A program made the translations under genes and the position numbers. The notes under the pieces are model-generated. The model saw nothing but the letters and a program-made list of their open reading frames with translations. It had not been told where the DNA came from and ran no database searches. Source: Bugulina stolonifera (Eukaryota > Bryozoa > Gymnolaemata > Cheilostomatida > Bugulidae). Taken from it: a stretch of 64,000 bases of DNA. This document shows positions 1 through 61,430 of the stretch, one piece after another. Position 1 is the first letter of the stretch. Every line of letters starts with the position of its first letter. The stretch lies in the NCBI GenBank assembly GCA_935421135.1, contig OW285190.1:18858501-18922500 (forward strand), written 5' to 3'.

Positions 1-2232
1 CAACTTCAAGCGTGTGGTTAAAAGAGGAAGCAGACGGAACTGCCTGAGGTGAGGGGATTGTGGAAATGAATAACAATTAAGTTAAAAGTACCCAAGGATT
101 ACAATACATGTATCAGTAACATATCGTGTTACCTGACATATGGTGTAATATATTACCTGACTTTTGAGGAAGGATAGTGCACCTGACATGCCGGTTGATT
201 ATAAGCTAAATATAAGTAGCAGTTAAAGATGTGAACATGATGTGAGCGATAAGAGGTAAGCGAGCGTGAAGACAACTCCTACTAATGTTAGAATAATATT
301 TATAGTAGGGAAGATCTAGAAGGAAATAAAGCTTTTGGTTGGGGTACACAAGAGTTTGACTACCCTAGTCACCTTAGTTGGAGTTGTCTTCTTTTCCTCT
401 CAAACCATTTACATGTACTTCTCATGGCTAAGTACAAGTAGTTTATAAAATGATACTTGTAAGGCTACCTGATCCATTCTTAAATGACATAGGATTCCCT
501 TACTCTTAGTTTGCATGCATACTGTATTTCTCAGTAACAACGGCTAAATTCACACTATGAAACAATCTGTATATGTATTTCAGGGCGAGATCCATGTTTG
601 CTAGGTTAATCAGCAACTGTGAAAGAATTGATGTGCCGAAAAACTTATTTCAAGCCGTCAGATACACTAATCTCTTCCTCCGTCACTGTAGGAACACAGG
701 CGTGGAATTCCCATCAGACGGTGATTAGACTAGATATATTGCAGCTTGCATAGTTTTATTAAAATTTAAATAGTAACTTGTCTACACTTATTATAGCAAC
801 CGAGTCTCTACACCAATTACATGATCAGGAAATGTGACAAACTATTTTGTTGAGAATTTCATGAATTATGCAATGCAATCGTTTACATCTTGTATTTATC
901 ATTACAATGAAGTAATTGCATGTAAGGGCACTGCATTTAGCCAACCTCTGTCAGTTTTTGCTGTAGATTACTCAGCTAAAAACACCTGTAATATCTATTA
1001 GTCAAGGAATCTATCTTTTGAGCAGTCAGAGACTTGTTTCACATTAGTCAAAATATCAGTCCTTGACTGAGGTTTGAACCCGGGACCTCTATGGCAGATA
1101 ATTGCCTAGTTCAGTGAACAGAACATGCTATCAGTTACCACTAAGCCAGCTCAGCAACCTTCTAAAGGTAGACATGCGCTGAGCCAACTGCACATCAGGT
1201 AGCCAGTGTATTATGGCCGCCTTGCTCTATATAAGGGGTTAAGAGGTTTAGCAAGTAGCATATAGTATGTTCTGTTCATTGTGCTAGGCGATTAGCTGCC
1301 ATAGAGGTCCCGCGTTCAAGCCTCAGTCAAGGACTGATATTTTGACTAATGTGAAACAAGTCTCTGACTGCTCAAAAGATAGATTCCTTGACTAATAGAT
1401 ATCACAGTTCACTCAAAGCCCGTCTACTGCTCACTGGTGAAGCCTCCTTTTATAAGGTTGCTGGGCAGTGTAGTGGGTAGCATGTTCTGTTCACTGTGCT
1501 AGCTGATTATGTGCCATATAGAGGCCCCTGGTTCAAACTATGGTCAAGGACTGGTATTTTCACTGTTGTCAAATAAGTCTCTGACTGCTCGTCATATAAA
1601 ATCCTTGCCTAAAAACATCATTTGCAGCTTTGTATAGCACTATTTTACATGCAAATGAATATTATTGTATATTGAGTAGCAATTAGTTGTGTATTAAACA
1701 GTGTGTTGTACTGCTGTAGGGTGTGGATTGGTAGCAGAATGTTTCCAAGATTTATTTACCAAAAGAAGCACTCGGATTGCTTGGTAAGTTAACAAAATAT
1801 ACTTATACGTTTCTCTGCCATGTATATTTTATAGCAATGATTCACATAAAATGGTTAGAGATCAGCTAGTGATGTTGTCATGTCATCAAAACACCAGGTT
1901 TACCCAGCAGAGATGTAACAGGTTGTAATTACATGTATATAATCACAATGATCCAGTTATTGACCTAGAAGTATATTCATCCCAATTGATGATACATAGA
2001 TTAGAGAAGTTTTCCATATTACAATAATTTTTCTATTACTTTCAGCAATGACGTTGATAAAGTAGATTCTTGTTACAAGAAAGCAACGGCAGATGGGTGT
2101 GAGACAGCGGAGCGTTTCCGTCAACTGACAATAGTACAGACTGTGCCAGAGCTCTGTCCTTCTGGCATATACAGACCAGAAGGGCGAATTCTGCCAAAAT
2201 GTCGAAAAGTTAGAGCTAAGGCTATTAAGTAG
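1..2232 (+). CDS. Copy 1: secreted 12-Cys family protein, 5' part outside the window
   Basis: This is the 3' part of a family member; exons 1-3 and most of exon 4 lie before the window. Coding exons seen are 1-48 (end of exon 4), 584-720 (exon 5), 1720-1783 (exon 6) and 2046-2232 (exon 7, TAG stop). All junctions are GT-AG with phases 2, 1 and 2, as in the paralogues. The visible protein contains the end of the C-x13-C module, the stretch ending VEFPSDG, then GCGLVAECFQDLF, and a last exon with the CPSG motif and a basic tail. No break is visible in these exons. Exon lengths (137, 64, 187) equal those of copy 2 exactly. The product is expected to be secreted, inferred from copy 2, because the signal peptide is not in view. 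Function unknown. Confidence 0.85.
268..391. mobile_element. MITE-like inverted repeat in intron 4 of copy 1
   Basis: A 124-bp segment is bounded by perfect 12-bp inverted repeats, GAAGACAACTCC at the left and GGAGTTGTCTTC at the right, with no coding capacity. A diverged version lies at the same place in copy 2 (5419-5550), so the insertion predates that duplication. Similar termini flank much shorter hairpins at 28993-29050, 47519-47559 and 48818-48861. It resembles a non-autonomous DNA transposon, but no target-site duplication was established. Confidence 0.5.
1012..1170 (-). mobile_element. tRNA-derived SINE (left arm of inverted pair)
   Basis: On the - strand this reads as a tRNA-like head: an A-box-like TGGCTTAGTGGTAACTG and, downstream, a B-box-like GGGTTCAAACC, followed by a tail ending in a GAGCAGTC-type segment (seen on the + strand near 1020). 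The same unit occurs on the + strand at 1240-1400 and 1452-1612 and at other loci here, which is typical of a SINE. It sits in intron 5 of copy 1. Confidence 0.7.
1240..1400 (+). mobile_element. tRNA-derived SINE (right arm of inverted pair)
   Basis: Same SINE as 1012-1170 in the opposite orientation, with a B-box-like core GCGTTCAAGCC at 1312-1322. Its tail, running from the CAGTCAAGGACTG region to the GACTGCTCAAAAGATAG region, is nearly an exact reverse complement of the left element, so the two could fold back on each other in an intronic transcript. Confidence 0.7.
1452..1612 (+). mobile_element. tRNA-derived SINE, third copy
   Basis: A further copy of the same SINE, in the same orientation as the preceding one and more diverged. 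It has an A-box-like GTAGTGGGTAGCATG and a B-box-like GGTTCAAAC, and ends with the GACTGCTCGTC tail. It lies in intron 5 of copy 1, before exon 6. Confidence 0.65.
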
Positions 2233-3331: not shown

Positions 3332-3418
3332 CAGTTGCATGTGTTACATATATTCACATTACTAAGACAGTATCTTGTGATTCACTGCTACACTAACTGC
3401 TACCCACAACTCAAGAAC

Positions 3419-6400
3419 ATGAGTAAGTAAACGTATTATATTATACTTACATGACTATCATTGTGAGTCATAATGGTGTAGTCACACATGTACATGTTAG
3501 AGAAACACTTACAATCATCATGATCTATCATTAGTCTCTGAAAGGTATGTTTAACTGTACATGTACATTCATCTACTATGTGAACACAAATCACGTGAAC
3601 AGTATTCATTGAGAACCTATCAGTTGATTTCCATTCCAAGAAATCACACACAAATTGAATCTGTTTATTTTATCTTTTGTGTAATACATAATAATAAAGT
3701 TCTGGAACCTTTTTTAAACACGGAGATTGCTTTAAGCTAACACTGTATATTAGGATGTAAGTGCTGTAACAGCTGTTGTAACCGCAGGCTGTTGTAACTG
3801 CAGCTGTTGTACCCGTGCTGTACCTGTGCTGTATCTGTGCTGTATCTGTGCTGTATCTGTGCTGTATCTGTGCTGTATCTGTGCTGTATCTGTGCTGTAT
3901 CTGTGCTGTATCTGTGCTGTATCTGTGCTGTACCAGTGCTGTACCAGTGCTGTATCTGTGCTGCATCTGTGCTGGATCTGTGCTGTATGTGTCGAAGTGT
4001 GAAAACCAAATAAACAGAAGTGAGTAGCCACTGATTCTCAGAACACTTAATGAAACAAGTATAATTTATTTGTAGTAAAACTGAGGGTTCTTCTTAGTTT
4101 TCTGGTTCTGCTACTAGTAGTAGTTGGTAAGTAGTCTGCAGTTCTGTGTCATGAAGTTAATTGTTAAATCAGCTGATCATAGCTCAGAGTAGAGGAAAAA
4201 GTTCTACATGCCAGATGTTCTATCTGTAAGCAGTAAAAATTTAAATATCAATTATATGAAAGTATATTTCATATCAATAACTATGAAATATGTTTATCGG
4301 TAAAGACTGCATGATATTTATTGCTGTTACAAATTTGTTTCATTGTTGGAATTACCAATATTCAGATAGTAATAAAGTAACCTACATGTGTGCAAAAGCA
4401 TTGGCATATATATATGTCTATGTCTATATTTACTGATGATATTATTTAACAGGTGTCTGCAGTGCTTCTGGTGCTAAACCTGGTGGAGAGACTAAGGAAA
4501 GTACATGTAAATATACATGTATATTAATAATAGTACAAGACGCATTTATTATATAGATTTATTTAAATTTATATAGATTTATTAGGAAATAAATCTATTT
4601 AAAAATGCGTCTTGCACTACTATTCATAATAAAAATATTACCCCAGACCAACATTTTTCAATATACATGCATATACTATTATCTGTAAACTATCAATACA
4701 TCAATACCATTAAGCACTGATTAAACATTTTTGTAGGTTTTGATGATGGTTGCATATTGCATTTATAAATCGTACGCTGGTTTGGCGCATTGAAAGTAGA
4801 TACATGTAGTATACGGCGAGCAGCATTGAATTTGAAAAAGTTCCATAACTTATTAGCCTATTGTTTTGGTACAGCTTGTGAAGAAAAAAGGTTCAACGGT
4901 TTCTGCAAATTCAAGCGTGTGGTTAAAAGAGGAAGCAGACGGAACTGCCTGAGGTGAGGGGATCTTGACAGTGAATAAATAGGTTAATGGTACCCAGAAA
5001 TAGAAAAAGTACATGTAGGTTAAAATTACCATACATTATCACTCAGTAACAGGCACTGACGATAAATTTAATTATACACATACAAGGTTGCAAGGCAGGT
5101 TGGATCCCCTGCGTGGTACAAAGACCCAGTAGTTGTAGACATCAGCAGGATTCAAACCCTGGACTTTCAGTGCTTTTGCGCCTCGGGGCAGGAGCTCAAA
5201 CAAACTGAGCCACCTCCTACTCCTAGTAGCAATATACATGTACACACCAGTAACATATCATGTAACATATCGCGTGATGTATCATGCGGTAATCATGTAG
5301 AAGGGTAGTGTTGACATGCCAATTCATCATTATATTGCTAAATAGGGATAGTGGGGGTAGTAGGGGTAGTGGTAAAATACATAAGTGTGATGTGAGAGAT
5401 AAAATGGCGCGAGAGCGTAAAGACACCTCCAATTAACCTTAGAACACCTATGATGGAAAGGAGCTAGATAGAAGTAAAGATTTTTGTTGGCAGTTGGGGT
5501 AAACAAAAGTTGGATTTCTAGCATTAGCAATCTTAGCTGGAGCTGTCTTCTTTTTTTCTCATGTCATTTTATTCTCAATTCACACTCACGTCTTTTACTA
5601 CTACAGGTTAAATAATTTATAACCTGATATTTGCAAAGTTATCTGATCTATTTTTAAATGATTTGTAAGTAGTATCTATCCCGATACTGTTAACTTACAT
5701 ACATACTATATTCCTCAGTAATAACGGCCGAATCTACAGCGTGAAATAATATGCATGCGTATTTCAGGGCGAGATCCATGTTTGCTAGGTTATCCAGCAA
5801 CTGTGAAAGAATTGATGTGCCGAAAGGCGTATTTCAAGCCATCAGATACACTAATCTCTTCCTGCGTCACTGTAGGAACACAGGCGTGGAATTCCCATCG
5901 GACGGTGATTAGACTACATTATATCATAGCTTGCATAGTTTCATTAAAATTTGAATATTAACTTGTCCACACTATTACATGAATAGTAATCAATTCTCTA
6001 TGCCACTTACGATGTACATTATCAGGAAATCTGACCAAGTTATGTTTTTGGAACTTTCATACACTATGTAGCACAATAATGTACAACTTGTATTTATCAT
6101 TACAATGAAGTGAATCACATGTATTTAGCCAAATCCTGTCATTTTTCCTGTAGACCATTTATATGTAGTTGTTGATACGTGCGATATTTGTAGCTTTGTG
6201 CTGGATGGCTAATTTGGCCACTTTTATATATTATTTTTTAGTCTTGAAATTTATCTTTTGAGCAGTCAGAGACTTGTTTCACATTCAGTGAAAACACCAG
6301 TCTTTGACTGGGGTTTGAATCTGGGGCCTCTATGGCACCTAATTGCCTAGCACAGCAGACAGTACATGCTATCAGTTACCACTAAACCAGTGAAGCAACC

Positions 6401-7218
6401 TTTTGGAAAGAAGTTTCACCAGTGAGTAGTAGATGTGCTCTGAGCCAATTGCACACAAGGCACCCCTCGTATTGTGCCCTCCTTGCTGTATATCAGGTGT
6501 TAAGGGGGTTGGCGTGTACGATGTTCTGCTCACTGTGCTAGGTGATTATGTGCCATAATAGAAGTCCCCTGGTTCAAACTATAGTCAAGGACTGGTATTT
6601 CCACTAATGTGAAATATAAGTCTCTGACTGCTCAATATATAAATTTCTTGTCTAAAACACCATTAGTAGCTTTGTATAACACTATCTTACATGCAAATAA
6701 ATATATTGTGCAATTATTATTGTGTATTAAATAGCGTGTTGTACTGCTGTAGGGTGTGGGTTGACTGCAGAATGTTTCCAAGATCTCTTCACTAAAAGAA
6801 GCACTCGGATCGCTTGGTAAGTTAACAAAATGTACTTACACATATCTCTGCAATCTACATTTTATAAAAATAGTTCACATAAAATGGTTAGAGATCAGCT
6901 AGTGATGTTGTTGTGTCCACAAGACACCAGATTTATCCAACGACCTACATGTAGATGTGTATTTATCCCTATTGATGATAACCATATTACAGAAGTCCTC
7001 CATCTTACAATAATTATTCTGTTGCTTTCAGCAATGATGTTGATACAGTGGATTCCTGTTACAAGAAAGCAACGGCAGATGGATGTGAGACAGCGGAGCG
7101 TTTCCGTCAACTGACAATAGAAATGGCCGTGCCAGAGCTCTGTCCTTCTGGCATATACAGACCAGAAGGCCGTGTTCTACCTAAATGTCGGAAAGTTAGA
7201 GCAAAGTCTATGAAGTAG
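3419..7218 (+). CDS. Copy 2: secreted 12-Cys family protein, intact (189 aa)
   Basis: Seven coding exons: 3419-3422, 4076-4126, 4453-4500, 4875-4953, 5768-5904, 6753-6816 and 7032-7218 (TAG). They sum to 570 nt with all junctions GT-AG and phases 1-1-1-2-1-2. Exon 1 contributes only ATG plus one base. The N-terminus MIKLRVLLSFLVLLLVVV is a clear signal peptide. A short linker with one extra cysteine (GVCSASG) follows, then the 12-Cys domain from TCEEKRFNGFC to LPKC and a basic tail. No membrane segment other than the signal is visible. The protein should be exported; its activity is not known. The gene is the middle unit of three tandem repeats of about 5 kb and is the only one both complete in the window and intact. 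Introns 1, 3, 4 and 5 carry a minisatellite, a MITE, a SINE and a SINE pair. I did not recognise the fold; confidence in the exon structure is high. Confidence 0.88.
3815..3990 (+). repeat. 11-bp minisatellite in intron 1 of copy 2
   Basis: About 15 tandem copies of an 11-bp unit, CTGTGCTGTAT, with a few variants (CTGTACC, CTGCATC) at the edges. Because 11 is not a multiple of 3, all frames stay open and yield spurious repetitive proteins. The matching spot in copy 3 (near 8840-8870) has only one or two units, so the array expanded after the duplication. Confidence 0.9.
4530..4633. mobile_element. MITE-like insertion in intron 3 of copy 2
   Basis: A segment of about 100 bp with terminal inverted repeats: an ATTAATAATAGTACAAGACG-type left end and a right end reading CGTCTTGCACTACTATTCAT, around an AT-rich core. 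Copy 3 lacks it at the corresponding intron position (near 10240), where the flanking sequence is continuous. It therefore looks like a recent non-autonomous DNA transposon insertion specific to copy 2. Confidence 0.6.
5092..5228 (-). mobile_element. tRNA-derived SINE or tRNA pseudogene in intron 4 of copy 2
   Basis: On the - strand the A-box-like TGGCTCAGTTTG (5200-5211) is followed by a B-box-like GGTTTGAATCC (5148-5158) at tRNA spacing. The head resembles a tRNA with a variable arm but does not form a convincing intact tRNA. The insertion is absent from copies 1 and 3 at the same intron position. It is a different SINE from the one at 1012-1612. Confidence 0.55.
5419..5550. mobile_element. 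MITE-like inverted repeat in intron 4 of copy 2
   Basis: Counterpart of 268-391, with mutated ends (AAAGACACCTCC on the left, GGAGCTGTCTTC on the right). Copy 3 lacks it because of a larger deletion of intron 4. Confidence 0.45.
6248..6405 (-). mobile_element. tRNA-derived SINE (left arm), intron 5 of copy 2
   Basis: Same family and orientation as 1012-1170. The B-box-like sequence on the - strand is the complement of GGTTTGAATCTGGGGCC. It faces the element at 6490-6650. Confidence 0.65.
6490..6650 (+). mobile_element. tRNA-derived SINE (right arm), intron 5 of copy 2
   Basis: Same family as 1240-1400, diverged (GGTTCAAACTATAG in place of the B-box consensus), ending in the GACTGCTC tail. 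Together with 6248-6405 it forms an inverted pair in the same intron as in copy 1, so the pair was probably present before duplication. Confidence 0.65.
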
Positions 7219-8422: not shown

Positions 8423-9834
8423 CAGTTGCATGTGTCCCACACATTCACATTACTAAGACACTAGTATTTTTGTGGTTCGCTGCTACACTGACTGCTACCC
8501 TAAACTCAATAAGATGAGTAAGTAAACATATTATATTATATTTACATGCATCATTGCGAATTATAATGGTGTAGTCATACATTTACGTATTAGAGAAATA
8601 CTTACATTCATCATGATCTATCATTAGTCTCTGAAAGGTATGATTAACTGTACATTCATCTACTATTATGTACATGTGGACACAAGTCATTGAGAACGTA
8701 CTAATTGATTTTCATTCTAAGAAATCACACACAAATTGAATCTGTTTATTTCATCTTTTGTGTAATACGCAATAACCAAGTTTGGGAACCTTCTTCGAAC
8801 CCGCAAATTGCTTAAGCTAACATTGCATATCAGGATGTGAGTGCTGTAACTGCAGTGCTGTATGTGTGAAAGCGTGCAAGTGAAACAAACAGAACTGAGT
8901 AGCTCTTGATTCTCAAAACACTTAATGAAACAAGTATAATTTATTTGTAGTAAAACTGGAGGTTCTTCAGTGTTTTCTGGTTCTGCTACTAGTAGTACTA
9001 GTTGGTAAGTAGTCTACAGATCCGTGTCATGAAATATTATTACCTTTCAGAGCCGTTTAATCAGCTGATCATAGCTCAGAGTAGAGGAACATCTACATAA
9101 CTCACTTTTAATACCAGGTGTTCTATCTTTAAGTAGTACAAACTTATATAGCATAATTTTTAATACTTAGATTGATACATCAATATGCAGTTTGTAATAA
9201 TAACCAGTGGTGTGTGCCAGTTTTATTTTGGAAACTCAAGTTTTCATGGCCAACTCTTAGTTGCGACTCTTCAAGTTACAAGGCAATTCTTTCAGTGACA
9301 GATCAAAACTTTCAAGTTACAAGTTAAATATTTACATGTCCCCAGAAACTCAAGTTTTCGTCAAGTTATCCAAGTTAACTACAAGCAAGTTTTAATTAAA
9401 TTCTTTTCTTGCTTAACTCGAGTCTTTTTATAGAGTTATTGGGTTATTATTTATCTTATGGTGAAATTTTGTTAGGAAATGGTGTTATTACAAGTTCAAA
9501 TTTCAAAGCAAAATGTCACAGTTTTAGTGCAAAATGTGTTATAATTGTGGTTGTGGTTGGTGGTTATAACTGTGGTATTCATTACAATTCACAGCTGCCC
9601 AATGAAAACTCGAGTTTTTGAATGTTTCAACATAATGATGTGTGAGTTGAGAGTCTTTGATCATAGCCATAATTGAATTTCAATTCAAGTTACAAGTTTT
9701 TGGCAGCTGCATATTCAAGTCACGAGTTTATATAATAAGGCATAAAATGTTGCTTGAATTAACTCGAGTGAGAGTCTTGAACTCAAGTCTAGCATCTCTC
9801 ATAATAACTATGAAATATCTTTATGGACAAAAAC

Positions 9835-9950
9835 TGTCCTGTTTAGAACTTTCCTGTTGTGAAACGTCCTGTTTAGAACTTTCCTGTTGTGAAACGTCCT
9901 GTTTAGAACTTTCCTGTTGTGAAACGTCCTGTTTTGAACTGTCTTGTTCG
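9835..9950 (+). repeat. 30-bp minisatellite in intron 2 of copy 3
   Basis: Three perfect copies (9841-9930) of a 30-bp unit beginning GTTTAGAACTTTCCTG, with partial units on both sides. It makes an apparent 110-residue frame with an ELSCCETSCL repeat that is an artefact. Related GAACTGTCCTG/CAGGACAGTTC words recur around 15170-15360. Confidence 0.85.
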
Positions 9951-10566
9951 AAATGTCCCTTTACCGAAAAAAAATTATATCAAGAGTAACTGAAATGCAT
10001 GGACTTTGCTAGCTGCTGGCATAAATTTCCGAATTTCTACAGTTTTTCAGGTTTTACACAAGCACTTCTGGCCATGATAAAAGGAGTGTAAGGCTGTCAC
10101 CTAGACCCAGGTACCTGTATAGCTAGCAGCATCTGCATGTATATAATATATACACTGTACTAATTGTATTATTTAACAGGTGTCTGCAGTGCTTCTGGTG
10201 TCAAACATGGTGAAGAGACTAAGGAGAGTAAATATGTTTATTATTCTCTTTAAACTATCAATACAGGAATATCTTGAACCAATGTGGGTCTTGTCGACTT
10301 TTGGTGGTGATCACATAATATTTTAATTGTAAACCCTGGGCTGGTTTTGTGTATTGACAGCAGATAACAGGGAGAGCTCTTGAAAACTTCTAGAACTTAC
10401 TAAGTTTAACCTATTGTTTTCGTTACAGCGTGTGAAGCAAAAAAGTTCAACGGCTTCTGTAACTTCAAGCGTGTGGAACCAGACGGAACTGCCTGAGGTG
10501 AGGGGATTATGACAGTGAATAACAAAGTTAATGGTACCCAAGGGTTAGAATATATGTATCAGCAAC

Positions 10567-10670
10567 ATATCGTGTAATAAATTACGTGACACATTGTGTA
10601 ATATATTACGTGACACATCGTGTGATATATTACGTGACACATGGTCTAATATATTAGGTGAGTTTCGTGT
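10567..10670 (+). repeat. 24-bp tandem repeat in intron 4 of copy 3
   Basis: About four imperfect 24-bp units of the form ATATATTACGTGACACATCG. Copies 1 and 2 have only one or two diverged units at the same intron position (near 121-170 and 5250-5280), so the array expanded in copy 3. Confidence 0.75.
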
Positions 10671-11424
10671 CATAATGTAGCGACTTTTCATTTTGAGAAA
10701 GAATAATGCAGTTGACATGCCAATCCATCTCATCGTGATAAATGAAGAGTTATTATTAAATATATAATTATATATAAATTACAATTATCTAATCCATTCA
10801 CAAATGGTGTAGTGTCCCCTTACTGTTAATTTACATGCATATTTTTTCAGCAAAATAACCAAGTTGATAATATGGGACAATCTGCTTGTGTGTTTCAGGG
10901 CCAGATCCATGTTCAGTAGCATAATGGGCAACTGTGAAAAAATCGATGTGCCAAAAAACTTATTTTAAGCCATCAGATACAGTAATCTCTTCCTCCGTCG
11001 CTGTAGGAACACAGGCGTGGAATTCCCATCAGACTACATAAATAGCTCACATAGTTTACGTGCTAATAAATACTGACTATATTAGATAGTCATCCCAGTG
11101 CAGGGTGTGGTTAATATATATGTTACACAGTGTGTTGCACTGCTGTAGGTTGTGGGTTGATCTCCGAATGTTCCCAAGATCTATTCACTAAAAGATACAC
11201 TCGGATTGCTTGGTAAGTTAACAATATTTGGGGCAGTGAGACTCATGAAATGTCTGTCTCAGCATTACTTAAAACAGGAAGTGTACATTTATGAAATAAT
11301 ATGATCTCTGCCATCCAATAGCTCATATAATTGTATTTTCATTAAGCAATTACAGTCTGGAAATCTCTCACCTACGGTACATTGTTATGAGATAGGTGAG
11401 AGCGGAGTTTCCTTTTTTAAGGAT

Positions 11425-11575
11425 GCTGAAATGGTGCAGTGGTACTGTTTTCTGACCACTGTACGAGGCAATTAGGTGCCCTAGAGGCGACCAATCAGGG
11501 ATAGGCTATTTTCACAGATGTGGAACCAAGTCCCTGGCTGCTCAGGAAAACTCCTTACAGCAAAAACTTTGGCAA
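11425..11575 (+). mobile_element. Diverged tRNA-derived SINE in intron 6 of copy 3
   Basis: Resembles the SINE at 1452-1612: A-box-like TGGTGCAGTGGTACTG, a degenerate B-box, and a TGGCTGCTCAGG-like tail. It is a single copy and not part of an inverted pair. Confidence 0.5.
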
Positions 11576-12734
11576 GCCCCCTTAACACTACAAATTTATT
11601 TTTGTAGTAATATTTTATTTGAATTTTATGTGAAAGGATTTTCTTATTTCAGCTATTTGCAGGTATAATGTGTCTCCTTATAAGTTGTGACGAATTGAAG
11701 CATGTGTTTCCTCAAATGTAAATAAAAAATTATAGAATATTAGGATTAATAACGCACTATGTAATTAAGCATTGGATAAGAATTCTTTCTCAAGACAACT
11801 GTTCACATGAAATGGTTAGAGGTCAGCTAGTGATGATGTCATGAAAACACCAAATGAATCCAGCAAAAATATAACATATTAATTACATAATCACACAGAT
11901 CAGGTCATTGGCATAGATGTGACTGTGGATCCATCCCAATTGATGATAAATAGATTACAGAAGTTCACCATCTTACAACAATTATTCCGTTACTTTCAGC
12001 GATGGCGTCGATAAAGTGGATTCCTGTTTCAAGAAAGCAACGGCAGATGGGTGTGAGACAGCAGAGAGTTTTCGTAAACTGACAATAAAAATGGCTGTGC
12101 CAGAGCTCTGTCCTTCTGGCATATACAGATCAGAGGGACGAGTTCTACCAAAATGTCGAAAAGTTAGAGCCAAGGCTATTAAGTAGCCTGAGTGACCTTG
12201 TAGTCTCCACATATATACATTTAAATTTGTACTGTCTTAGATTTTATGTTAAGCTGTCATTGCATGCGCATAGAGATTGCATAAACATAGATAGAAAGAG
12301 AGAATTGTTTTAAGTACTCTGATATTTTCTCCAGCTGCAGTGTCATTAATAGCAGCAAGATACTGTCCCTATATGCTATGGAGAAACATGTAATCTGCCA
12401 TTGACACTTTAGTTTGGCACACCTACATGTAGATGTACACGCTTAAATAATAATTTTCATAACTAAATGATTGGTACATTGATGCAATGTTTCGTAAAAT
12501 AGCTGAAAATCTTTATGTCTAATACGATGTCAAACTTGGCTAACAGGCAGCAGTGAGAGAGGAGGTTGGATATAGTAGTACAAAGATTAATTTATAAGTA
12601 GATGAATTTACAGGAAGTTATTAACAATGATTTATGGGAAGGTGCTAATAATGATTTGTGGAAATTGTTACTTGTAATTTATGAGGTGCCAACAAAATGG
12701 GAAAATCCAAATTAGTATGAGAAGAATATAGATC

Positions 12735-21400: not shown

Positions 21401-21476
21401 TGAGCAGACAGTGCCCAGCGTGTGCCCCTCTGGAAGATATAACTCCAACACACCTCTTTTTCCAACATGCTACTAA
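18428..21476 (+). CDS. Copy 4: secreted 12-Cys family protein, exon 4 boundary in doubt (209 aa or broken)
   Basis: Exons: 18428-18431, 18980-19027, 19384-19500, exon 4 ending 19702, 20613-20749, 21014-21083 and 21314-21476 (TAA). An in-frame ATG also lies at 18425; 18428 matches copy 10. The signal peptide begins MSVKGIIATLAVVAVMI. Exon 3 encodes a 39-residue linker rich in Tyr, Arg and Asn starting VCSAYG. With the acceptor at the place used in copy 10 (exon from 19628), exon 4 is 75 nt rather than 79, shifts frame and stops at TAG 19669-19671. If the AG at 19610-19611 is used instead, exon 4 is 91 nt, the frame is restored, and a TGC codon supplies a cysteine near the lost one. So the gene is either rescued by acceptor shift or a young pseudogene. 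All other exons are clean, and the last exon has the conserved EQTVPSVCPSG stretch. Closest relative: copy 10. Confidence 0.7.
20754..20990 (+). repeat. 23-bp minisatellite in intron 5 of copy 4, interrupted
   Basis: Units of 23 bp of the form AGTCTCTCAGTCTATGAACT, split by about 130 bp of unrelated sequence (roughly 20838-20965). Copy 10 carries an uninterrupted array of the same unit at 60809-60927, so the unrelated segment is probably an insertion into copy 4. Confidence 0.8.
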
Positions 21477-44100: not shown

Positions 44101-45400
44101 TTACAACTTATAATATATCTAAATTGCGGAGCTTTACGTAAATTATCAGGATTTATATGTATACTCTTGTTGTTGTTTTGGCGTTGAAGTCTAATGTCAA
44201 GTTAGCATGCATTTAGATATTCTTTGTTTACTATTTAAATAGTTGTTCTAATTTTATAAATAAATTCCTTTTACTAAGTCAAATCATCTTATGGTGACCT
44301 TTGAACCGTTCAATTCACCAATGTTGCTAAATTGCCATAACTGGAAGATATTTATGTTTATCAAGAGAAAGAGTATGACAGCTATACCGGCCAAGTAATT
44401 GTAATATTGCAATGGTTTTTTGGTTTTGGTACTGTCGCCCTGAGACGACTTCCAAGTCCAAAATGAAATGCCAATGAATGGTGCTAGGTCTTCTCATTAC
44501 ATGAAATATTAACAGGTACTAGTAGTCAAATAACTACCAAAGACGACCCATATGATCACGAGTCAATGCTTGTGTGCTATACTGAGAAAGAGAGTGATCC
44601 GACCTAGGAGGAAGTTCGGGTTGCAAGGTTGAGGGCCTTAACAACTAGAGTGCATATAAGAACGGATGTGTCTTTATTGAAATCCAAGCATGAACTGAGA
44701 AAAAAAAATGGATAAACAATGCCCTTTATATAGTAATAGAACTTCAGGAGGAAGTTCCGGTAAAAAGGCCGACGTAGTCTCGTAAAAAGACGACGTAGGG
44801 TCGTCCGGAAATTGTGCAACAACATGGCGGCCGGAAGCCCGATGGCCGACCCAAAATAAGTCAGGTTTGACAAAAGATGCTTAAAATGATTTAGATCACA
44901 TGCAAAATCAATATCAAGTATTTCTGAGAGGTCGGGCCTCTTTACATGGGTATAAAAAGGGTATAATGACTCAGTAATGCGTACAAGAAGTGTACAAGTA
45001 ACATTCAACTACATAGACTATGTGTACAAGCAAGTGTAATGCAATGTAAGTATATATAATTAACTTCATGTAGTCGGGAGGCTGCGTGTGTCCATTACAA
45101 TATTATATTCAACTAAACAAATATTAGCCTTTGAGTTATTTAAAATTATTAAATAACATGGTATCCGTGCATATTCTTATAACATCCTCTTCTTTTAATG
45201 TCATGAAGATATTGTTTACTTACCAAACAATGTCAGCATCACCCAAAATGAGGCCATCCTGGGAAAACCTAAATATAACATATAAATATCATAGCTACAC
45301 AACTGTACAATCGCTACATGTCCGCACGTGGACCAGAGTATCAAAGTACAATGATAATTTTCTATTATAGATCATTAAGACAATATCATGACTTACCCAT
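41120..45400 (-). CDS. Copy 7: secreted 12-Cys family protein with a His/Pro linker and a moved start (189 aa)
   Basis: Exons on the - strand: start exon 45400-45397 (ATGG), 45258-45224, 43684-43622, 43377-43299, 42828-42692, 41679-41616 and 41312-41120 (TAG). Exon 2 is 35 nt, so the usual exon-1 ATG would be out of frame and stop after seven codons. An ATG inside exon 2 at 45257 gives an open frame beginning MASFWVMLTLF, 189 residues in all, so translation probably starts there. The linker has four consecutive His and six Pro (HHHHKHPPPPPP) and no cysteine. All twelve domain cysteines are at standard spacing, with EFPSKG and CPSGDF motifs; the C-terminus is extended and ends in GGW. Intron 5 holds a hAT-like MITE. 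Confidence 0.82.
41920..42438. mobile_element. hAT-like MITE in intron 5 of copy 7
   Basis: A 519-bp element with terminal inverted repeats CAGTGTTCGAAGTG. It is flanked by CATGAGGA (41912-41919) and CATGAAGA (42439-42446), an 8-bp target-site duplication with one mismatch, as expected of hAT transposons. Subterminal GTGTACCCACCTCA blocks occur near both ends. There is no transposase frame. Confidence 0.78.
44604..45070. mobile_element. Dispersed repeat related to 14340-14980, intron 2 of copy 7
   Basis: Shares ordered blocks with 14340-14980 and is GC-richer than the intron around it. The - strand has a 134-residue frame (45008-44604) containing RRLFTRLRRPF. It shows no family or known domain signature and is best read as part of a decayed mobile element. 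Confidence 0.35.
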
Positions 45401-49177: not shown

Positions 49178-52100
49178 TTAGTAGTAAGGACACTCAGGAA
49201 CAAGTGACTCTTGGCTGTGGAATACACCAGAAGGGCAGAGGGCAGGTACCATTTGCTCAATTACTAACTGCCGAAACCCTTCCGCTCTTTCACAGCCATT
49301 CCTCGTGACTTCTTTGTAGCAATAATTCACTTTATTTACATTGTCGCTGAAACACAAAACATCATGTTTTAATAGCTCAAAGTTGTTCTTTCAAGCTGAT
49401 AACACAAAACTATGATAGCCTTAGCACCATTCTTATCTACAGTCAAAAGATCTGAGCCTGCTTAGGAATGTGTAATGTATCACCTAACCAGTGGTCTGAA
49501 ACTCCCCTTACAACTTATCTTAACAAATCACTCAGAACTAAAATCTTTGTCTTTAACAAAACACAAGATCTAGAGGTTGAGAAGTAGCGAACTGTTTCTG
49601 CATTTACTAGTAATATGTTTACTAACTGATTACCACTGTAGTTCACTTCTAAATTTTAGCACTATTGGTATTGGGTACGATTCAAGTATTATTCGAGTAT
49701 TATTTGGTAATATTGCTAACTTAAACCTTTTGTAGTCAAATAAGTTAAAGTTAAGTTCACTAAAAGCTTGTGTGATTCTGAATGAGTATGTAAAGCATTG
49801 ACATTATACAATTTTGGCTTTTCTAAACAAAAATTTCACATTTTTATGTCCATTTTTCAATATTAATGAGATAAGATGGTGCCAGTATTTTTGTTAGATA
49901 TACAGGTGCATCTATATGTGTATAAAAATATCTTGTTGCTAAGTCACTCTCTGGAAACCAATTCGTCCAAATAAGTGCTTAGCATATCTGATGTCACCAA
50001 GTGGTGTCTGGTGTCACCAAGTGGTGTCTGGTGTCACCAAGTGGTGTCTGGTGTCACCAAGTTGTGTCTGGTGTCACCAAGTGGTGTCTGGTGTCACCAA
50101 GTGGTGTCTGGTGTCACCAAGTGGTGTCTGGTGTCACCAAGTGGTGTCTGGTGTCACCAAGTGGTGTGATAGATTGTCTACATGTACATATATGTCTAAC
50201 AATTTCACACAAACGCTAGTGGGGAAAACTTCAGAATATAAAAGAAATTTCTTAACAACAAAACAGAAATAATTAGTATGGGTAGATTTTGATAGTATAG
50301 TACATGTGAGTATCTAGAATTACAGAAGTTCTACCTATTTTCTGGATTTTACAGATGAAGCTAGTGGCTAGAAGTTTCAACTTTCATGACTTGTGGGGGA
50401 TTCAGGTTCGATTCCTGCAAGGGTCATTGATGGTGTAAAGAGTAAAACGTAAACGTTAAACGTTAAAAACACTCTTGTGCTACTTTGCCACTTTAGTGTG
50501 CTGGGAACAGCATGATAAAGACAATTTCCCTTACCCTAAAACTGGAAGTGAAACTGATAGGTTTTTATACATTTATCGTTATAGGAAGGCAAAGGAACAT
50601 TTTTTGTTATGACTGCACATGTGCTGTAACATCTAGTTAACAATTATTTCACCACATCTACATGACCATATATATCTATACAACGGCAAAATACGTGTGA
50701 GATGAGCGTGTAATAGAGATTTATTCAATATGTACTGATCAGAGTTATTTCAGTCTTATTCTGAAGGTTATAAGTGAGTAGACTAAACGGAAGATGGACA
50801 TGATTGGTGTAAAAGTATAATAAACTTATCATTACAATTAGATAGTCAACTTACCAAGCAATTTTCTGGTTATTATATCCTTCAAATATCCCTTGAAAGC
50901 ATTCCACAGTTCCTCCACAACCTGTTTGATTTACATGTATGTAAGTATATGTTTATATACAGGTATGCATGTTTACGAACATATAATGCAACTAGGACAT
51001 ACATGTTGGTACATTCTGTTTGCATTGGTTTGACTGCAACCATTTGTATTATTCATAAATATCCACTGAATAATAATGAGACTGCAAAGCATAGGAACTT
51101 TGCTCATACATGTGAAAGTTTCACCAGAACATCTAAAAGCTCTTATGTAGGAAGAACTGGAGAAGTCTAAGACATTTACTAGTGCACTACTACATTACTG
51201 CACTACTGCAGTACTGCACTACGGCACTACTGGACTATGGCACTACTGCACTACTGGACTATTGCACTACTGCGCTACTGCACAACGGCACTACTGCACT
51301 ACTACACTACTACACTACTACACTACTACACTACTACACTACTACACTACTACACTACTAATGTTGCTCTACTGCTGTATTACTGTATTACTGTATTACT
51401 GTATTACTGTATTACTGTATTACTGTATCACTGTATTACTGCATAATATCTAATCGTAATCAGTACCTTTGGATGGAAATTCCAGCCTCTTGTTCTTGCA
51501 GTATCGTGAGAAGAGATTGAGAAATGGAGTAACTTGAAACACTCTCCTAGCCGGGTTCCTGACTTCACATCCAGTAATGGAGTCACTGTACATCCTCACT
51601 GCCCTGAAACCACCAATTTTACTAAACATAAGCATGCTCTTATTGAACAGTGAATACTATTTCCTCAGTCTTCCTCATTTTCTAAATAATCCGTTCACTT
51701 ATCCTAAAGGTGTACCTCTATCCCAAGGTAAGCCCCCAATCCTGGAAGTTTTCACTTCATCAAACTAGCAATCCTTTAAGCTTTACTAATAGTAGGCTTA
51801 CCAACAAGAGTAAGACTAAATAGGAGAGAGATCACACAGAAGTCAGGGTGAAAATTTGAAATGTTGTGAGCTGTGTTTACTTGAAGGTAGTTTGGGTAGA
51901 GATTAGCATACAATAACGGATATTCTATTTTCAGGAGAAAGGAGCTACTAACTGGGGTCAACCGTTTTCTAGAGACCAGTTAACAATCTACTTACCTCAT
52001 ACAGTTTCTTCTACCTCCTCTTTGAATCAATCGTTTATATTCACAAAAGCCATTGAACAAGTTCTCTTCACATACTGTAAATTCAAATCAGTTCAAAATA

Positions 52101-53284
52101 ATTTGACACACCGGGTATCATAGTAATACATTAACAGAATAGGCCTTCACATAATGCATTATTCTCTCAACAAAATATATTCCACAGCAAAAACTTCTTG
52201 AAACTGATTAATGGACTAAGCAGTACAAATCAGAGAAAAAAAGGTAAAAACAGAGAATGCTTAAAGACGGTAAGGCTTACTTTTAACTTTGTGATAAGGT
52301 TGGTGATGTTGATGGTAGGATCCATAAGGTCCAACCCATGCGCTGCACACTCCTAGATAATAGTATATATTACGACAATGTACACAAACTGCATTATTTA
52401 ATAGCCATAATGGTTCTACATATACCTTATACTGAGTAGCGCAATGTTGTAACCTACAAAATACCATTAGATCAAAATTGATTCCAATGAAACTTAGGTC
52501 TACTGCAGGCGAACATGTATATGATATTTTGTGTTTTGAACCGTAGGAACTATTGTACATTATAGGTACACACCATCCTGATAATGCTTCCATAATTGTT
52601 TTTTATTCAATCTTATCGCTAACAGCTGAGTGTTGGGAGATTTTATATCTGTGCTAATTTGACCACACACACAAGAAAAAGGCGAGCTCCAAGATCCTTT
52701 GACTAAGGAACCCACCACACCTCCATAACATTTTACCAGCTGAGCTATTCTGACACACTCATTCGATAAAATTATTGCTAGGCATGCTGTGCAAGTAGAG
52801 CCTTGTATGATGTTTTACCAATTAATAGAGATGTAGAAATCGTTCACAGAACATAAATAATATTATGATGTTTAACTAACATAAATCTCTGTTCTGTGTG
52901 CAGTATTTGTCAATGCACCAAGAAATAACTTAGATAAATCAGTAGTACAACACTAAACATGAACATGTGCATACTTAGGATAATATATGACTTACCAGCT
53001 ATTGCTATGAGAACACCAAGTGACACAAGGAGTCTGTTGAAGGCTAGAATTGAACAGTAGAAACTGGAATGAATCATTATTATATGCAGCTCATTTAGGC
53101 AGCTTATGCAATAAAACTTGTAATTATGACAGTTTTCTCTGCAGACTTACACCAAAAATCCCATTTTACTTGGAGCACATAGTTATGTTATACAGATATA
53201 CATGTACATGTACCAACCAATATCATCATTGCTTACTGATATTCAGTGTAGTTGGCATTAACGTATAGAGCTTTACTTACACAT
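49178..53284 (-). CDS. Copy 8: secreted 12-Cys family protein, intact (191 aa)
   Basis: Exons on the - strand: 53284-53281 (ATGT), 53043-52996, 52352-52281, 52074-51996, 51603-51467, 50921-50855 and 49346-49178 (TAA). The sum is 576 nt, all GT-AG, phases 1-1-1-2-1-2. The signal peptide is MSFNRLLVSLGVLIAIA. The linker has the extra cysteine (GVCSAW) and then a Tyr/His/Gln/Gly stretch. The domain starts ICEENLFNGFC and has a basic run RGGRRNC much like copies 1 and 2. All twelve cysteines are conserved, with EFPSKG and LCPSGVF. Intron 6 carries a 20-bp minisatellite and a SINE; intron 5 carries a short-unit array. Copy 9's first four exons lie 1.9 kb upstream in the same orientation. Confidence 0.88.
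49990..50167 (+). repeat. 20-bp minisatellite in intron 6 of copy 8
   Basis: About nine nearly perfect copies of GTGTCTGGTGTCACCAAGTG, including one with a single substitution. It lies inside an intron on the opposite strand; the continuous frames through it are artefacts. Confidence 0.95.
50350..50560 (+). mobile_element. tRNA-derived SINE, third type, intron 6 of copy 8
   Basis: A strong B-box, GGTTCGATTCC (50405-50415), sits downstream of an A-box-like AGCTAGTGGCTAGAAG at tRNA spacing, followed by an A-rich, repetitive stretch. The head does not fold into a convincing intact tRNA. It is antisense to copy 8. Confidence 0.55.
51175..51440 (+). repeat. Short-unit array in intron 5 of copy 8
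   Basis: Three adjoining blocks: CACTACTG-like units, then TACACTAC units, then TACTGTAT units. They abut the acceptor-distal side of exon 5 (51603-51467, - strand) within about 30 bases of its donor. Confidence 0.85.
52670..52770 (-). mobile_element. Possible tRNA-derived fragment in intron 2 of copy 8
   Basis: On the - strand TAGCTCAGCTGGTAAAATG resembles a tRNA D-arm/A-box, with a weak B-box-like GGATCTTGGAGC downstream. Probably a degraded SINE head. Confidence 0.3.
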
Positions 53285-55131: not shown

Positions 55132-56117
55132 CTCTGACAATTGATAGTACTTTTTGATTCAACCAGATCTTTAAATTCACAGAATATTCCAAACAGGTTA
55201 TCCTCACACACTGAAACAGCAAATTATTTCATCACTCATAGACAGGTTACATCACCAAGTAATTAGCTCACTCTATGGGCTCATCACTAGTTCATTAATT
55301 TATTGGTAGTTAGTCTATTAATAGTAATTATGTAATAACTTGCGTGGTGGTCTGGGTGCAGGTGTTGAATGACCATATCCACTTCCAGAGACAACTGTTC
55401 AACATCAACATAACATAGTAAGTATACACACACATACAATGTAAATTGTACAGTCATGTAGATAAGAATGTGTTCTGATGTCCTAACACTGATTAACATA
55501 TAAAATACCGTTGGGGAAAGGTATTGAGCAGATGGTGCTTTCTTATACCACATGAGTCAATATTAATTTGTACCTTACCAGAGCACTTGTGTGCATAGCA
55601 AATGTAGAAATATCCTAGGTGTTATTTTTGGAATATAGTATTTATGTAACTTACCAATCAACACAATAGCCATTATAAGAGTTCCTTTTGCCACTATAGA
55701 AGAAAAGAATGAATAACACTTGAAAAACCAAATTAATTCAACATAATATTTAAACCAGTTGACAGCCAGCATCATTTCTTCACTATTGGACTCTGTAGAG
55801 GTCAGTGTTTGATTGTGTTACTCTCTAGAGGTCAGTGTCTAATGGCTGTTACACCACAGTTTGCTTAAAATTCACAATAACAGTAAACCTACATGTACCT
55901 GTATGTATAATTCTTAGACTAGAAATGGAGTAATGATAAAGTACTAAACCTACATGTACCTGTATGTATAATTCTTAGACTAGAAATGGAGTAATGGTAA
56001 AGTACTAAATCCCATTCACTGTAGAATTTAATTTGCATAGCATGGGTATAAATTTTCATTCGCTATCAGCGAAGGTTGACTACAGCTTTAAGTTATATGT
56101 TTGTGTACTTACACATG
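55132..56117 (-). pseudogene. Copy 9: 5' half only (exons 1-4) of a 12-Cys family gene
   Basis: Exons on the - strand: 56117-56114 (ATGT), 55693-55655, 55394-55344 and 55210-55132. These are open and in frame: a short signal peptide MLAKGTLIMAIVLI, a linker VVSGSGYGHSTPAPRPP without cysteine, then LCEDNLFGIFC and the conserved C-x13-C ending in NCQR. Exon 3 uses a GC donor (GCAAGT at 55343-55338), as copy 10 does at the same intron. Exon 4 ends with a GT donor in phase 2. No exons 5-7 are found before copy 8 begins. Since phases match, exon 4 could in principle splice onto exon 5 of copy 8 (51603), making copy 9 an alternative first half; otherwise it is a truncated relic. I call it a pseudogene provisionally. 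Confidence 0.65.
55885..56006 (+). repeat. 61-bp tandem duplication in intron 1 of copy 9
   Basis: Two almost identical 61-bp copies starting AAACCTACATGTACCTG; the single differences imply a recent event. Confidence 0.9.
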
Positions 56118-58456: not shown

Positions 58457-58464
58457 TATATAAA
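58457..58464 (+). promoter_or_regulatory. TATA box of copy 10
   Basis: TATATAAA, 81 bases before the ATG at 58538, in a block shared with copy 4. Confidence 0.7.
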
Positions 58465-58537
58465 CTATTGGAAGTCATATGCTTCTCCATTGTCACTGAT
58501 TGCATTTAGCTGAAGAACTACATACTCAGTCAACAAG

Positions 58538-61430
58538 ATGTGTAAGTGTATATATATTCTTTACTAGTTCAGTCTTTATTATTTTCAATGATTATTTATT
58601 TCAGTAAGGCTTTGTATTAACGTAATTACTGATAGGTATGGAGAACATAAATTTCACTTTGTTTATTCAGTGCAGTAATATTTAAATTTTTTTGTTCAGG
58701 TCCTCTTTATGTCATCATGTTGCTATCAAAAACATGTTCATGTATATCTTGCATGCTATGCAACGAGTAGTCACTGTTGTTTTTGTGCTTTACGTGCTTT
58801 AATGGAATTCAAGCTCAGCTAGTTGCAAGCTTATAGTGTGTTCTTTCATTACTTCCTCTAAACAAAACCTGGACAAACAGAACTTAGAAGATTGGTACCA
58901 GAATATCTTTACTTCTAAATAATAAGGAGTAACATCTCAGAACACATACTCTTGTGGTGTACTGTCAGCTAAGACCTCTCCTGCCAACTTATTCCTCGAA
59001 ACCCTATTTTAAACTAATTATCAATTTCTCTTTATACTTACAGCTGTCAAAGGAATTATTGCTGGTATTTCTGTTGTAGCTGTTGTGATTCGTAAGTATC
59101 AGGCGTTTTATTAATGTGACATATACATGCATGTAACTGCTTGATGTCATTAGGCATTTTCTTCCTAGTATGTCTGCTTTTCAACATGATCAAACTACAT
59201 GTATTATTAAAGTGGTTAAATCGTGTTATGGTTATACACTGTATTTCATATTACTACTTAGGTTACTCATGTTATGAATTATTATGAAACTGCTATTGGT
59301 GTTAAGCAGCATTAGAGCTCATTAGTTTGTAGAAATCTTTGTTCGATACTCCAACATATTGATGCCCTAACATGTTACATAACACAGTATTGTTCTGAAA
59401 GTGACAACGTATATCTACATGTAAATTAAGCAATTATGATACGTTTTTTAAACAGAGGTTTGCAGTGCCTATGGACAGCCTTATGGAAGCCGCTACGGAG
59501 ACCGCTATGGACACCAATATGGCCGTCCAAATACGTACAGAAAACCAGGCAAGCATTAAATAATACAAACATTGAAGTTTTTACAAATTCCCATCATTTT
59601 CTAAGAGTGTTTTGAAAATAGTGTCATCATTATGTGTGTAATAGATATAAGAGGAATACATGCAATACACACTTTGCATTGTAGTCTGTGAAGAGAACCT
59701 CTCTGGCATTTTCTGCAACTTCAAGTCGCTGGTGGAAACAAAAAGCAACTACAACTGCCGAAGGTATCTTTGCTTAGTTTATGATACTTTTAGTTGTGGT
59801 GAAGAGATATTTAGAAAATCTCAGTTGGCAACATCATGTTTAGAAAACATATACTTGGAAAATATTTGTTTCAAAACTGTACAGCTGCAATGTAGGAAAG
59901 GACAACTTTCTTTTGCATTAAATATAATTAATCACACAAAAAGTCACACGAAATATAACGCTAGTAGCAAGCATTGGAATTGAGCGTGCATTACACTGCA
60001 TATGTATCCACCATTAAACCTGAATCTATGCACTGACATACACATAGATATTACCCTGAAAGCGCGGGTGCAGTGTATCCACTTTATTTGCTCTGCTCCT
60101 GATAATAATGTAATAGGCCTATAATATTATTTTGTTTAAAATTGTGTTGCTCCAACGATCTCATATACAGTTTTTGTTGAAACCTATTAAAACTGCATTT
60201 TTAAATAAGATTTTTGAAAAGCCCCTTTATTTGTGAAGAGCTTATAGAACAACAGAACTCGCAAGTAAAAGTGAGTCTCGGCTTATTTTAATTTGGCATG
60301 CGCTGCGTGTTAACTGAGACCCTGCTCTACCACAATAGTATCCCTCACAACCAGTATGATGAGTATACAGATGTTTTGCCTATAAAATTATCTCCACCCA
60401 TAGGTTCGCGGTCTACGTACAGTAAGATGTAGGATTTTACCCATAGCCTCACTACTTGAGTGTCACTTTAGAGTTATTGCAAGTCTTAGAGTGGGCGTGA
60501 CGATATGTGCAACAGTTTGCAAAAAACATTGCCATTCCAAGGCCTATATGAGCATAACCTCTCTATCCTTTGAACTCAGGCTAACTATTCGGTTAAACTC
60601 AGGCTATTCCATATTTCCACTGTAACTGCAACTACCATATATTTATTAATAAATGAATTAATTGCAGAGCAAGAGACATGGTCAGTACTGCCATTTCTAA
60701 CTGTGATGTGAAGGACCCAGTAAGAAGAGTATTCCAGGGCAACAGGTTCGTTCAACTCTTCGTGGCCAGCTGCCAGTATTCTGGTGTGGAATTCCCAACT
60801 GATGGTGAGTAGTCTCTCAGTCTATGAATAGCTAGTCTTTCAGTCTATGAATAGTTAGTCCCTCAGTCCACGAACTGTTAGTCGCTCAGTCTATGAATAG
60901 CTAGTCAATCAGTCTATGAATATGTCTGATTATTTCCTGTAGGCTGTGGTAAGATTACCGAATGTCTACAGATTATCTTTAGGAATACTTATCACGGAGC
61001 TAAGATTGCTTGGTAAGTAGGAATATCTATGATTTGATTCATATCAAATTATCGAGGATGACTTCACCTGTAGATCATATTGTAATATTGTTTGTGTTGT
61101 CAGCAGGTGCACTGGAGGTGCATACTGTACTGTAAACAACTACACTGTGAATGTACATAAAAACTGGGACACGAGAATCTCTTTTAAACTTCCGTGCTGC
61201 CTAGATAATACTCATAGTTGTCTATAATGGGTTTAAAACTTGATGACAAACTTCCATTTCTTTCCAGTGAGAAGAAAAGGGTCGCTGATTGGTGCTATAA
61301 TGAAGCAAAGAGACAAGGCTGCTCATTGGCTGTAGCTGCCCAGAAGCTAGTTATTGAGCAGACAGTGCCCAGCGTGTGCCCCTCTGGAAGATATAACTCC
61401 TATAAACCTATTGTTCCAACATGCTACTAA
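58538..61430 (+). CDS. Copy 10: secreted 12-Cys family protein, intact (197 aa)
   Basis: Exons: 58538-58541 (ATGT), 59044-59091, 59456-59548, 59685-59763, 60668-60804, 60943-61012 and 61268-61430 (TAA). The sum is 594 nt, phases 1-1-1-2-1-2. Intron 3 starts with GC (GCAAGC at 59549-59554); the others are GT-AG. The signal peptide is MSVKGIIAGISVVAVVI. The linker VCSAYG... is Tyr/Gly/Arg-rich with repeated YG and RYG words. The domain begins VCEENLSGIFC, keeps all twelve cysteines, and has EFPTDG, EQTVPSVCPSG and a C-terminal TCY. Promoter, introns (especially about 60400-60620 versus 20330-20540) and exons match copy 4, so the two arose by duplication of a block of about 3.3 kb now about 40 kb apart. 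This copy shows the intact exon 4 with which copy 4 must be compared. Confidence 0.9.
60809..60927 (+). repeat. 23-bp minisatellite in intron 5 of copy 10
   Basis: Five 23-bp units of the AGTC(T)CTCAGTCTATGAATAG type, starting right after the exon 5 donor. It is the uninterrupted counterpart of the array in copy 4. Confidence 0.85.

Follow-up and report, generated by a model that had tools for sequence, protein, structure and literature searches.

A 64,000-nucleotide stretch of chromosome 4 of the bryozoan Bugulina stolonifera (positions 18858501-18922500; hereafter the window) contains ten loci that belong to one gene family. As read from the DNA, these loci almost certainly represent a multigene family whose products carry a predicted signal peptide, then a short variable arm (none in g5), then a core of about 150 residues with twelve cysteines, encoded by a start exon that holds ATG plus one base and by five or six more short exons. 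A sequence-only reading of the same DNA had proposed ten loci of one family. The ten loci were confirmed, but not as ten intact genes: g3 is a pseudogene, g9 consists of a 5' half only, and g1 is cut by the window edge and has a start exon without a GT donor. The description of the family in that reading as secreted, disulfide-rich, unrecognised, built of short exons and locally expanded agrees with the signal exon and twelve-cysteine core, the clustered loci and the lack of a credible database match. The features by which a secreted cysteine-rich multigene family is recognised, namely a signal peptide, an even number of conserved cysteines after it and clustered copies, were all found.

Gene models of the ten loci

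When all 1,496 stop-to-stop fragments of 25 residues or more were compared with one another, four exon families emerged at the ten loci; these are the core exons, and the signal, arm and start exons were found later. When the exon sets were assembled, as the sequence-only reading had recommended, seven window genes (g2, g4, g5, g6, g7, g8 and g10) gave clean models that run from ATG to stop without an internal stop and encode 178-210 residues, stop counted (Table 1). Intron phases were consistent across the seven models (1,1,1,2,1,2), with g5 lacking the arm exon, which was looked for and not found. Within the core, exons 2 and 4 end in phase 2 and exon 3 ends in phase 1. The introns measure 111 to 1,842 bases and are GT-AG in 40 of 41 cases, the other (g10 arm) being GC-AG. 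Since exon borders were chosen, the clean frames arise partly by construction, and independent support comes from the way in which diverged copies agree. Least certain in the models are the tentative signal exons of g5 and g7. An alternative first exon for g8, beginning MANLFKLCSSM, was set aside in favor of the common start exon of ATG plus one base.

The three remaining loci are incomplete in different ways. The start exon of g1 lies 1.4 kb to the left of the window and reads ATGA followed by AT, where the sister genes have GT. Exon 2 of g3 is 10 nt shorter than in its sisters, and its exon 3 contains an in-frame TAA and has lost its donor. Exons 3-5 of g9 were not found between g9 and g8. 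The g9 locus lies upstream of g8 on the same strand and in compatible phase; because the flanking intron phases match, it could splice onto g8, and it could represent an alternative front end of that gene rather than debris.

Table 1. Family loci and associated features; positions are those of the window unless given in Mb of chromosome 4
Feature	Position	Strand	Details
Chromosome 4 loci	18.76-19.16 Mb		18.76-18.84 Mb (6); U1, U2; window (10); 18.93-19.00 Mb (4); 19.15-19.16 Mb (3)
g1, first core exon (exon 2)	1..48	+	cut by window edge; begins 31 bases to the left
g1, core exons	584..2232	+	584-720, 1720-1783, 2046-2232; 12-Cys core intact
g2, complete	3419..7218	+	start exon end 3419-3422; signal 4076-4126; arm 4453-4500; core exons 4875-4953, 5768-5904, 6753-6816, 7032-7218
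g3, pseudogene	8514..12186	+	start exon end 8514-8517; signal 8951-9004; arm 10180-10227; exon 2 from 10429; exon 3 from 10899; exons 4 (11149-11212) and 5 (12000-12186) intact
g4, complete	18428..21476	+	start exon end 18428-18431; signal 18980-19027; arm 19384-19500; core exons 19612-19702 (acceptor by frame), 20613-20749, 21014-21083, 21314-21476
46-bp tandem array, 8 copies	24488..24857	+	each unit ATGG then GTAAG (start-exon end and donor); upstream of g5
g5, divergent	25204..28516	+	signal 25204-25260 (tentative); core exons 25551-25629, 27472-27602, 27939-28002, 28318-28516; pI 4.8
g6, complete	32505..36810	-	start exon end 36807-36810; signal 36294-36341; Tyr/His/Pro/Arg-rich arm 35385-35498; core exons 34577-34655, 34160-34296, 33531-33594, 32505-32676
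g7, complete	41120..45400	-	start exon end 45397-45400; signal 45224-45268 (tentative); His/Pro-rich arm 43622-43684; core exons 43299-43377, 42692-42828, 41616-41679, 41120-41312
g8, complete	49178..53284	-	start exon end 53281-53284; signal 52996-53043; Tyr/His-rich arm 52281-52352; core exons 51996-52074, 51467-51603, 50855-50921, 49178-49346
g9, 5' half only	55132..56116	-	start exon end 56113-56116; signal 55655-55693; arm 55344-55394 (GC donor); first core exon 55132-55210
g10, complete	58538..61430	+	start exon end 58538-58541; signal 59044-59091; arm 59456-59548 (YGxx repeats, GC donor); core exons 59685-59763, 60668-60804, 60943-61012, 61268-61430

With its own subfamily left out of the profile, each of 33 of the 34 window exons tested was detected at E<1e-3 (5.3e-4 to 1.2e-24), the exception being exon 4 of g5 (0.021); this set omits g1 exon 2, which extends beyond the left edge of the window, and g3 exons 2 and 3, both of them broken. 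Forty shuffle searches (ten block shuffles with each of four full profiles) produced one match under 1e-3 (9.4e-4), and the family profiles produced none under that threshold in the reversed window. Profiles made from window exons only detected genes outside the window, with E values down to 1.7e-23. As for other content, Pfam gave nothing below E 0.08 for seven long open reading frames of the window, two of which hold family exons, no Rfam match was found in the window at gathering score, and ARAGORN detected no tRNA there.

The twelve-cysteine core

Twelve cores were fully assembled, eight from the window (g1 with the 31 bases to its left) and four, U1, U2, T1 and K2, from outside it; T2 and T3, each missing one exon, were left out as incomplete, and the remaining loci were not assembled. 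Exactly 12 cysteines were present in each of the twelve cores, the number given in the sequence-only reading. That count is correct though invisible in any exon, because one cysteine codon is split across the junction of exons 4 and 5 (TG/C or TG/T) and is present only after splicing. The cysteine spacing 8-13-13-22-11-5-13-8-8-18-14 was exact in half of the cores (6 of 12), with small length variants in g4, g5, g6, g7, g8 and g10, and the last core exon keeps four cysteines at all 20 loci compared. The other invariant columns of the twelve cores are A28, F49, E68, P70, Y105, P129 and P145. The pI of the core ranges from 4.8 (g5) to 9.7 (g1); g5 and g7 are acidic, and the cores of g1, g2 and U2 are strongly cationic, with a net charge of +13 to +17.

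In each of six core segments, the limits of which were chosen by hand and without a control, the hydrophobic moment at 100 degrees exceeded that at 170 degrees, and the best angle fell at 100-108 degrees in four of them. The segment of residues 27-40 peaked at 164 degrees with a small difference (0.38 versus 0.32), and the last segment peaked at 118 degrees, very weakly (0.09). From these features we infer that the core would form a compact, mainly helical extracellular domain with six disulfides. Because the twelve cores share no conserved set of catalytic-looking residues, this domain probably binds rather than catalyzes. A phospholipase-like reading was dropped, as there is no invariant His or Asp.

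Signal, arm and start exons

The first coding exon contributes just ATG and one base, followed by GTAAGT. An ATG one base before a GTAAGT donor was present in the candidate lists of eight of nine genes, the exception being g1. Joining of this base yields hydrophobic N-termini starting MIKLRVLLSFLVLLLVVVG, MSVKGIIATLAVVAVMI and MSFNRLLVSLGVLIAIAG, each of which leads into VCSA, placed at the beginning of the arm exon or close to it. By reading and hydropathy, these N-termini are interpreted as putative signal peptides.

The arm exon follows the signal exon and opens with VCSA or a similar sequence. It is a separate exon, located after the presumed cleavage site and before the first cysteine of the core and bounded by phase 1 on both sides, and its sequence differs strongly between subfamilies. 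With limits set by eye, the arms of g4, g6, g7, g8 and g9 comprise 14-37 residues with an H+Y+R+P fraction of 0.47-0.75, compared with 0.14-0.24 in the twelve cores; those of g1, g2 and U2, delimited in the same way, comprise 11 residues with little Tyr or His (H+Y+R+P, 0.09-0.18). The g10 arm contains YG-x-x repeats and stands outside this count.

The motif ATGNGTAAGT occurs 16 times in the window versus 1.18 expected, and none of 100 shuffles reached 16. Because the motif was picked after the candidates had been viewed, and because the array upstream of g5 alone gives seven copies, the shuffle figure is to be read beside the background, which is two copies in 102.5 kb of neighboring DNA without family exons. 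Eight of the 16 are single copies upstream of g2, g3, g4, g6, g7, g8, g9 and g10, seven lie in the g5 array, the eighth unit of which has GTAAGC, and one is elsewhere. Thus, all nine window loci with a 5' end inside the window have the motif upstream (g5 as the array). The copy elsewhere, at 6834 on the minus strand, is not accounted for by a start exon of the family; a single such copy is about the chance expectation. Outside the window, ATGNGTAAGT is also found upstream of U2, K1, K2, T1 and T2. It was not seen close upstream of U1 or T3, although one copy lies 6.6 kb from U1, and the upstream DNA of the remaining outside loci was mostly not inspected. A further copy is located at 19170233, where no family exon was found.

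Extent of the family in the genome

Searches covered 234,951,659 bases in 27 contigs. One contig is a mitochondrial genome (14,440 bp, 31.1% GC) in which every protein gene recognised by eye lies on a single strand, with AGR read as Ser and TGA as Trp; these features spoke against a sponge origin, which base composition and ACATGTA-rich sequence had suggested. The combined searches found at least 27 loci with one or more family exons at E<1e-3; the E values of these loci mix search spaces, being based on the whole genome in some searches and on fetched DNA alone in others. Of about 27 loci, 25 lie within about 0.4 Mb of chromosome 4 and two on chromosome 2, at 8.19-8.20 Mb. A hand-joined query was needed for three of the 27 to pass, those near 18.764, 18.834 and 18.837 Mb, the first of them barely (8.7e-4). 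Two weak loci near 18.77 Mb (E 0.07-0.08) were left out of the 27, and no family exon was detected at E<0.05 between 19,042,501 and 19,150,000. Because the genome search scores the best candidates only, further copies may exist.

Selection and divergence

dN/dS was calculated for ten pairs by the Nei-Gojobori method, and three of these were saturated at silent sites. Close pairs gave values of 0.23 (g1/g2), 0.43 (g1/U2), 0.26 (g2/U2), 0.28 (g4/g10) and 0.34 (U1/K2); near saturation, the values were 0.26 (g6/g8) and 0.20 (U1/g2). Exons of g1 and g2 were 86-94% conserved versus 68-83% for introns, and those of g2 and U2 82-91% versus 46-81%. The g4/g10 comparison was mixed (exons, 68-90%; introns, 68-82%), with exons 2 and 3 (68 and 76%) no better conserved than the introns. 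Collectively, these comparisons indicate that close core copies are under purifying selection.

Between subfamilies, identity was 24-56%, and silent sites were near 2 or saturated in five distant pairs, which indicates that the subfamilies are old. The sequence-only reading had called the family fast-diversifying. Taken as rapid selection on the core, this claim was not supported, because dN/dS was well below 1 in the five close pairs (0.23-0.43; no site-wise test). A tree of the twelve cores joined g4 with g10, U1 with K2 (chromosome 2), and U2 with g1 and g2 at starred forks; the other forks were weaker, and the g5 branch was very long.

Searches for known relatives

Pfam-A searches with 12 members at E<=10 listed three families, at E 0.12, 0.13 and 1.3, none of them at curated score; a profile match to an already described domain, which the sequence-only reading had named as evidence against a new family, was therefore not found below E 0.12. 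The Pfam matches (Crisp, FCaBP EF-hand and Vault_2) were judged unrelated and at chance level. NCBIfam, a library made for prokaryotes, returned no family at E<=1 for the 12 members. The best E values in PDB sequence searches were 0.41, 1.6 and 0.37, and the matches (a viral envelopment polyprotein, sevenless, a designed protein, S-adenosylmethionine synthase and Rifin) were likewise set aside as unrelated and at chance level. A collection of about 5.8 billion proteins, which like the other databases possibly includes few spliced bryozoan proteins, yielded 3, 346 and 38 candidates and none at E<=10. The sequence-only reading had called the family possibly lineage-specific; this result is not proof of restriction to bryozoans, because the search needs shared five-residue words, short-exon animal genes are possibly absent from the collection, and the one animal genome searched was that of B. 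stolonifera.

Among the literature matches listed, whose titles and abstract openings were covered (supplements and subscription journals being outside this scope), no such family is described in bryozoans. The general kind of family, clustered, secreted, cysteine-rich and without known relatives, is already well established. As far as these searches reach, what appears to be undescribed is the cysteine framework, the arm exon, and the ATG-only start exon together with its array.

Proposed role and alternatives

Taken as one statement, a gene family with a core under purifying selection that would form a folded extracellular binding domain and act in a matrix is a plausible reading that falls short of probable. 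The matrix role by itself, in which the proteins would form part of material secreted outside the cell, for example zooid cuticle, rhizoid or larval adhesive, or gland mucus, is a tentative and rather doubtful assignment. Such a role would fit because the core is constrained, disulfide-rich and devoid of conserved catalytic-looking residues, and because several subfamilies carry a variable Tyr/His/Pro/Arg-rich arm. The stable core would bind polysaccharide or protein; the Tyr/His/Gly/Pro/Arg-rich arm could bind metal, coacervate or cross-link via tyrosine; and variation among copies in arm and charge (pI 4.8-9.7) might serve different types of zooid or different stages.

We place the matrix reading slightly ahead of its main rival, host defence. 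Under the latter, the proteins would be secreted for defence of the host or microbe management, their cationic disulfide-rich cores binding microbial surfaces and their copy number and charge varying with the targets. The cationic group of g1, g2 and U2, with its short arm poor in Tyr and His, would fit defence or polyanion binding at least as well as a matrix: its net charge reaches +17 and its pI 9.7. Consistent with defence are also the clustering of a multigene family with a pseudogene and partial copies and a resemblance of the His/Tyr/Arg-rich arms to histatin-like peptides. However, the five close pairs show no sign of positive selection (dN/dS 0.23-0.43; no site-wise test), g5 and g7 are acidic, and the core is large and conserved. 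We regard this role as possible, with considerable doubt.

A second alternative concerns ancestry and is compatible with any role. The family may be a distant branch of a known helical cysteine-rich extracellular domain (nematode T20D4.11-like, GDNF/GAS1-like or similar) that has diverged too far for profiles. The helical periodicity and the many conserved cysteines would suggest a resemblance to these families, whereas no Pfam match fell below E 0.12 in 12 members and the PDB matches were at chance level; such a descent is conceivable and on the doubtful side. It is unlikely that the copies are signaling or recognition ligands, in which a helical disulfide-rich extracellular domain would be presented in different versions, for example at gamete, larval or allorecognition contacts. 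It would suit ligands that the core framework is constant and its surface variable, that the subfamilies have diverged and that an E-x-P motif is invariant and non-catalytic, but low-complexity arms are generally unusual for such molecules, and no known ligand family was matched in Pfam or PDB sequences. That the copies are mostly decaying relics, no longer expressed, is very improbable: g3 is broken, g9 has no 3' half and the start exon of g1 has no GT donor, whereas seven window loci retain intact frames, borders and 12-Cys cores and dN/dS is well below 1 in five close pairs.

Returning to the matrix reading, a wider scenario can be drawn, and in its entirety it is unlikely. An undescribed extracellular fold with twelve cysteines in the spacing given above would have arisen in bryozoans and radiated to about 27 loci. 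In most copies, an exchangeable low-complexity arm on a symmetrical phase-1 exon would tune secreted material by zooid type. The start exon end, ATG and one nucleotide, would be open to tandem multiplication, as in the eight-unit array of g5, and splicing could join the intact 5' half g9 to g8 as an alternative front end.

In poorly sampled phyla, secreted genes often go unannotated. The structure described here suggests that gene finders could miss such genes, with seven short exons, a start codon alone at an exon end and introns that range from about 100 to over 1,800 bases. A fold that proved new would be one more among the extracellular domains known from spiralians. Bugulina has specialized zooids and a fouling lifestyle. 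Expression of the family is directly testable, because the B. stolonifera genome note cites laboratory culture and zooid transcriptomes (PMC10213821).

Comparison with known systems

The nematode T20D4.11-like domain is secreted, has many conserved cysteines and is probably helical, and the GDNF/GAS1 domain is a helical, disulfide-rich extracellular module. Both are represented in Pfam, and both were absent from the Pfam-A matches of the 12 Bugulina members at E<=10. Squid beak histidine-rich proteins and mussel foot proteins contain low-complexity stretches rich in Tyr, His, Gly and Pro. The Bugulina proteins are likened to these by composition; here, however, the Tyr/His-rich stretch is a short arm on a cysteine-rich core. 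Taxonomically restricted families of secreted cysteine-rich proteins are described in reef corals (PMC2652719), and lineage-restricted secreted proteins related to symbiosis in aphids (PMC3574423). By those descriptions, the Bugulina family would resemble them in being secreted or cysteine-rich. The features of the Bugulina family to be set beside those coral and aphid families, as they are described there, are the size of its core, the spacing of its twelve cysteines, its arm exon and its ATG-only start exon.

The start codon and splice donor of the model for g5, a divergent family member, were multiplied across a 46-bp tandem array, with one set per unit. Adjacent exon-like pieces within the array were spaced 25 bases apart, a gap that seems too short for an intron, and therefore g5 perhaps uses just one of the 8 units. 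A match to the start-exon donor motif ATGNGTAAGT was also present without a link to any family exon; about one such match is expected in the window by chance.

The front half-gene g9 lay upstream of the complete gene g8, with matching phases. The g9 exons could possibly serve as alternative first exons for g8.

Features in the window and COX1-like stretches elsewhere in the assembly
Feature	Position	Remark
Start-exon array, 46 bp	24488-24857	8 units: ...CTCAG, CTCTTNCCAACTCTGTCATGG, GTAAG...
ATGNGTAAGT match	6834-6843	minus
g9 front half	55132-56116	minus
g8	49178-53284	minus
Minisatellite, 11 bp	3815-3992	within or close to family genes
Minisatellite, 20 bp	49987-50167	within or close to family genes
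Minisatellite, 8 bp	51178-51441	within or close to family genes
Dispersed repeat copies	about 1001-1392, 6213-6382, 34924-35314	both strands
COX1-like	C12:7199-8926	in-frame TGA
COX1-like	C26:34375-36051	in-frame TGA
COX1-like	C16:2-181	

The COX1-like stretches, all beyond the mitochondrial contig, would be either nuclear copies or another organism's DNA in small contigs. The dispersed repeats contained what looks like a tRNA B-box (GGTTTGAATCTGGGG) and may perhaps represent a SINE.
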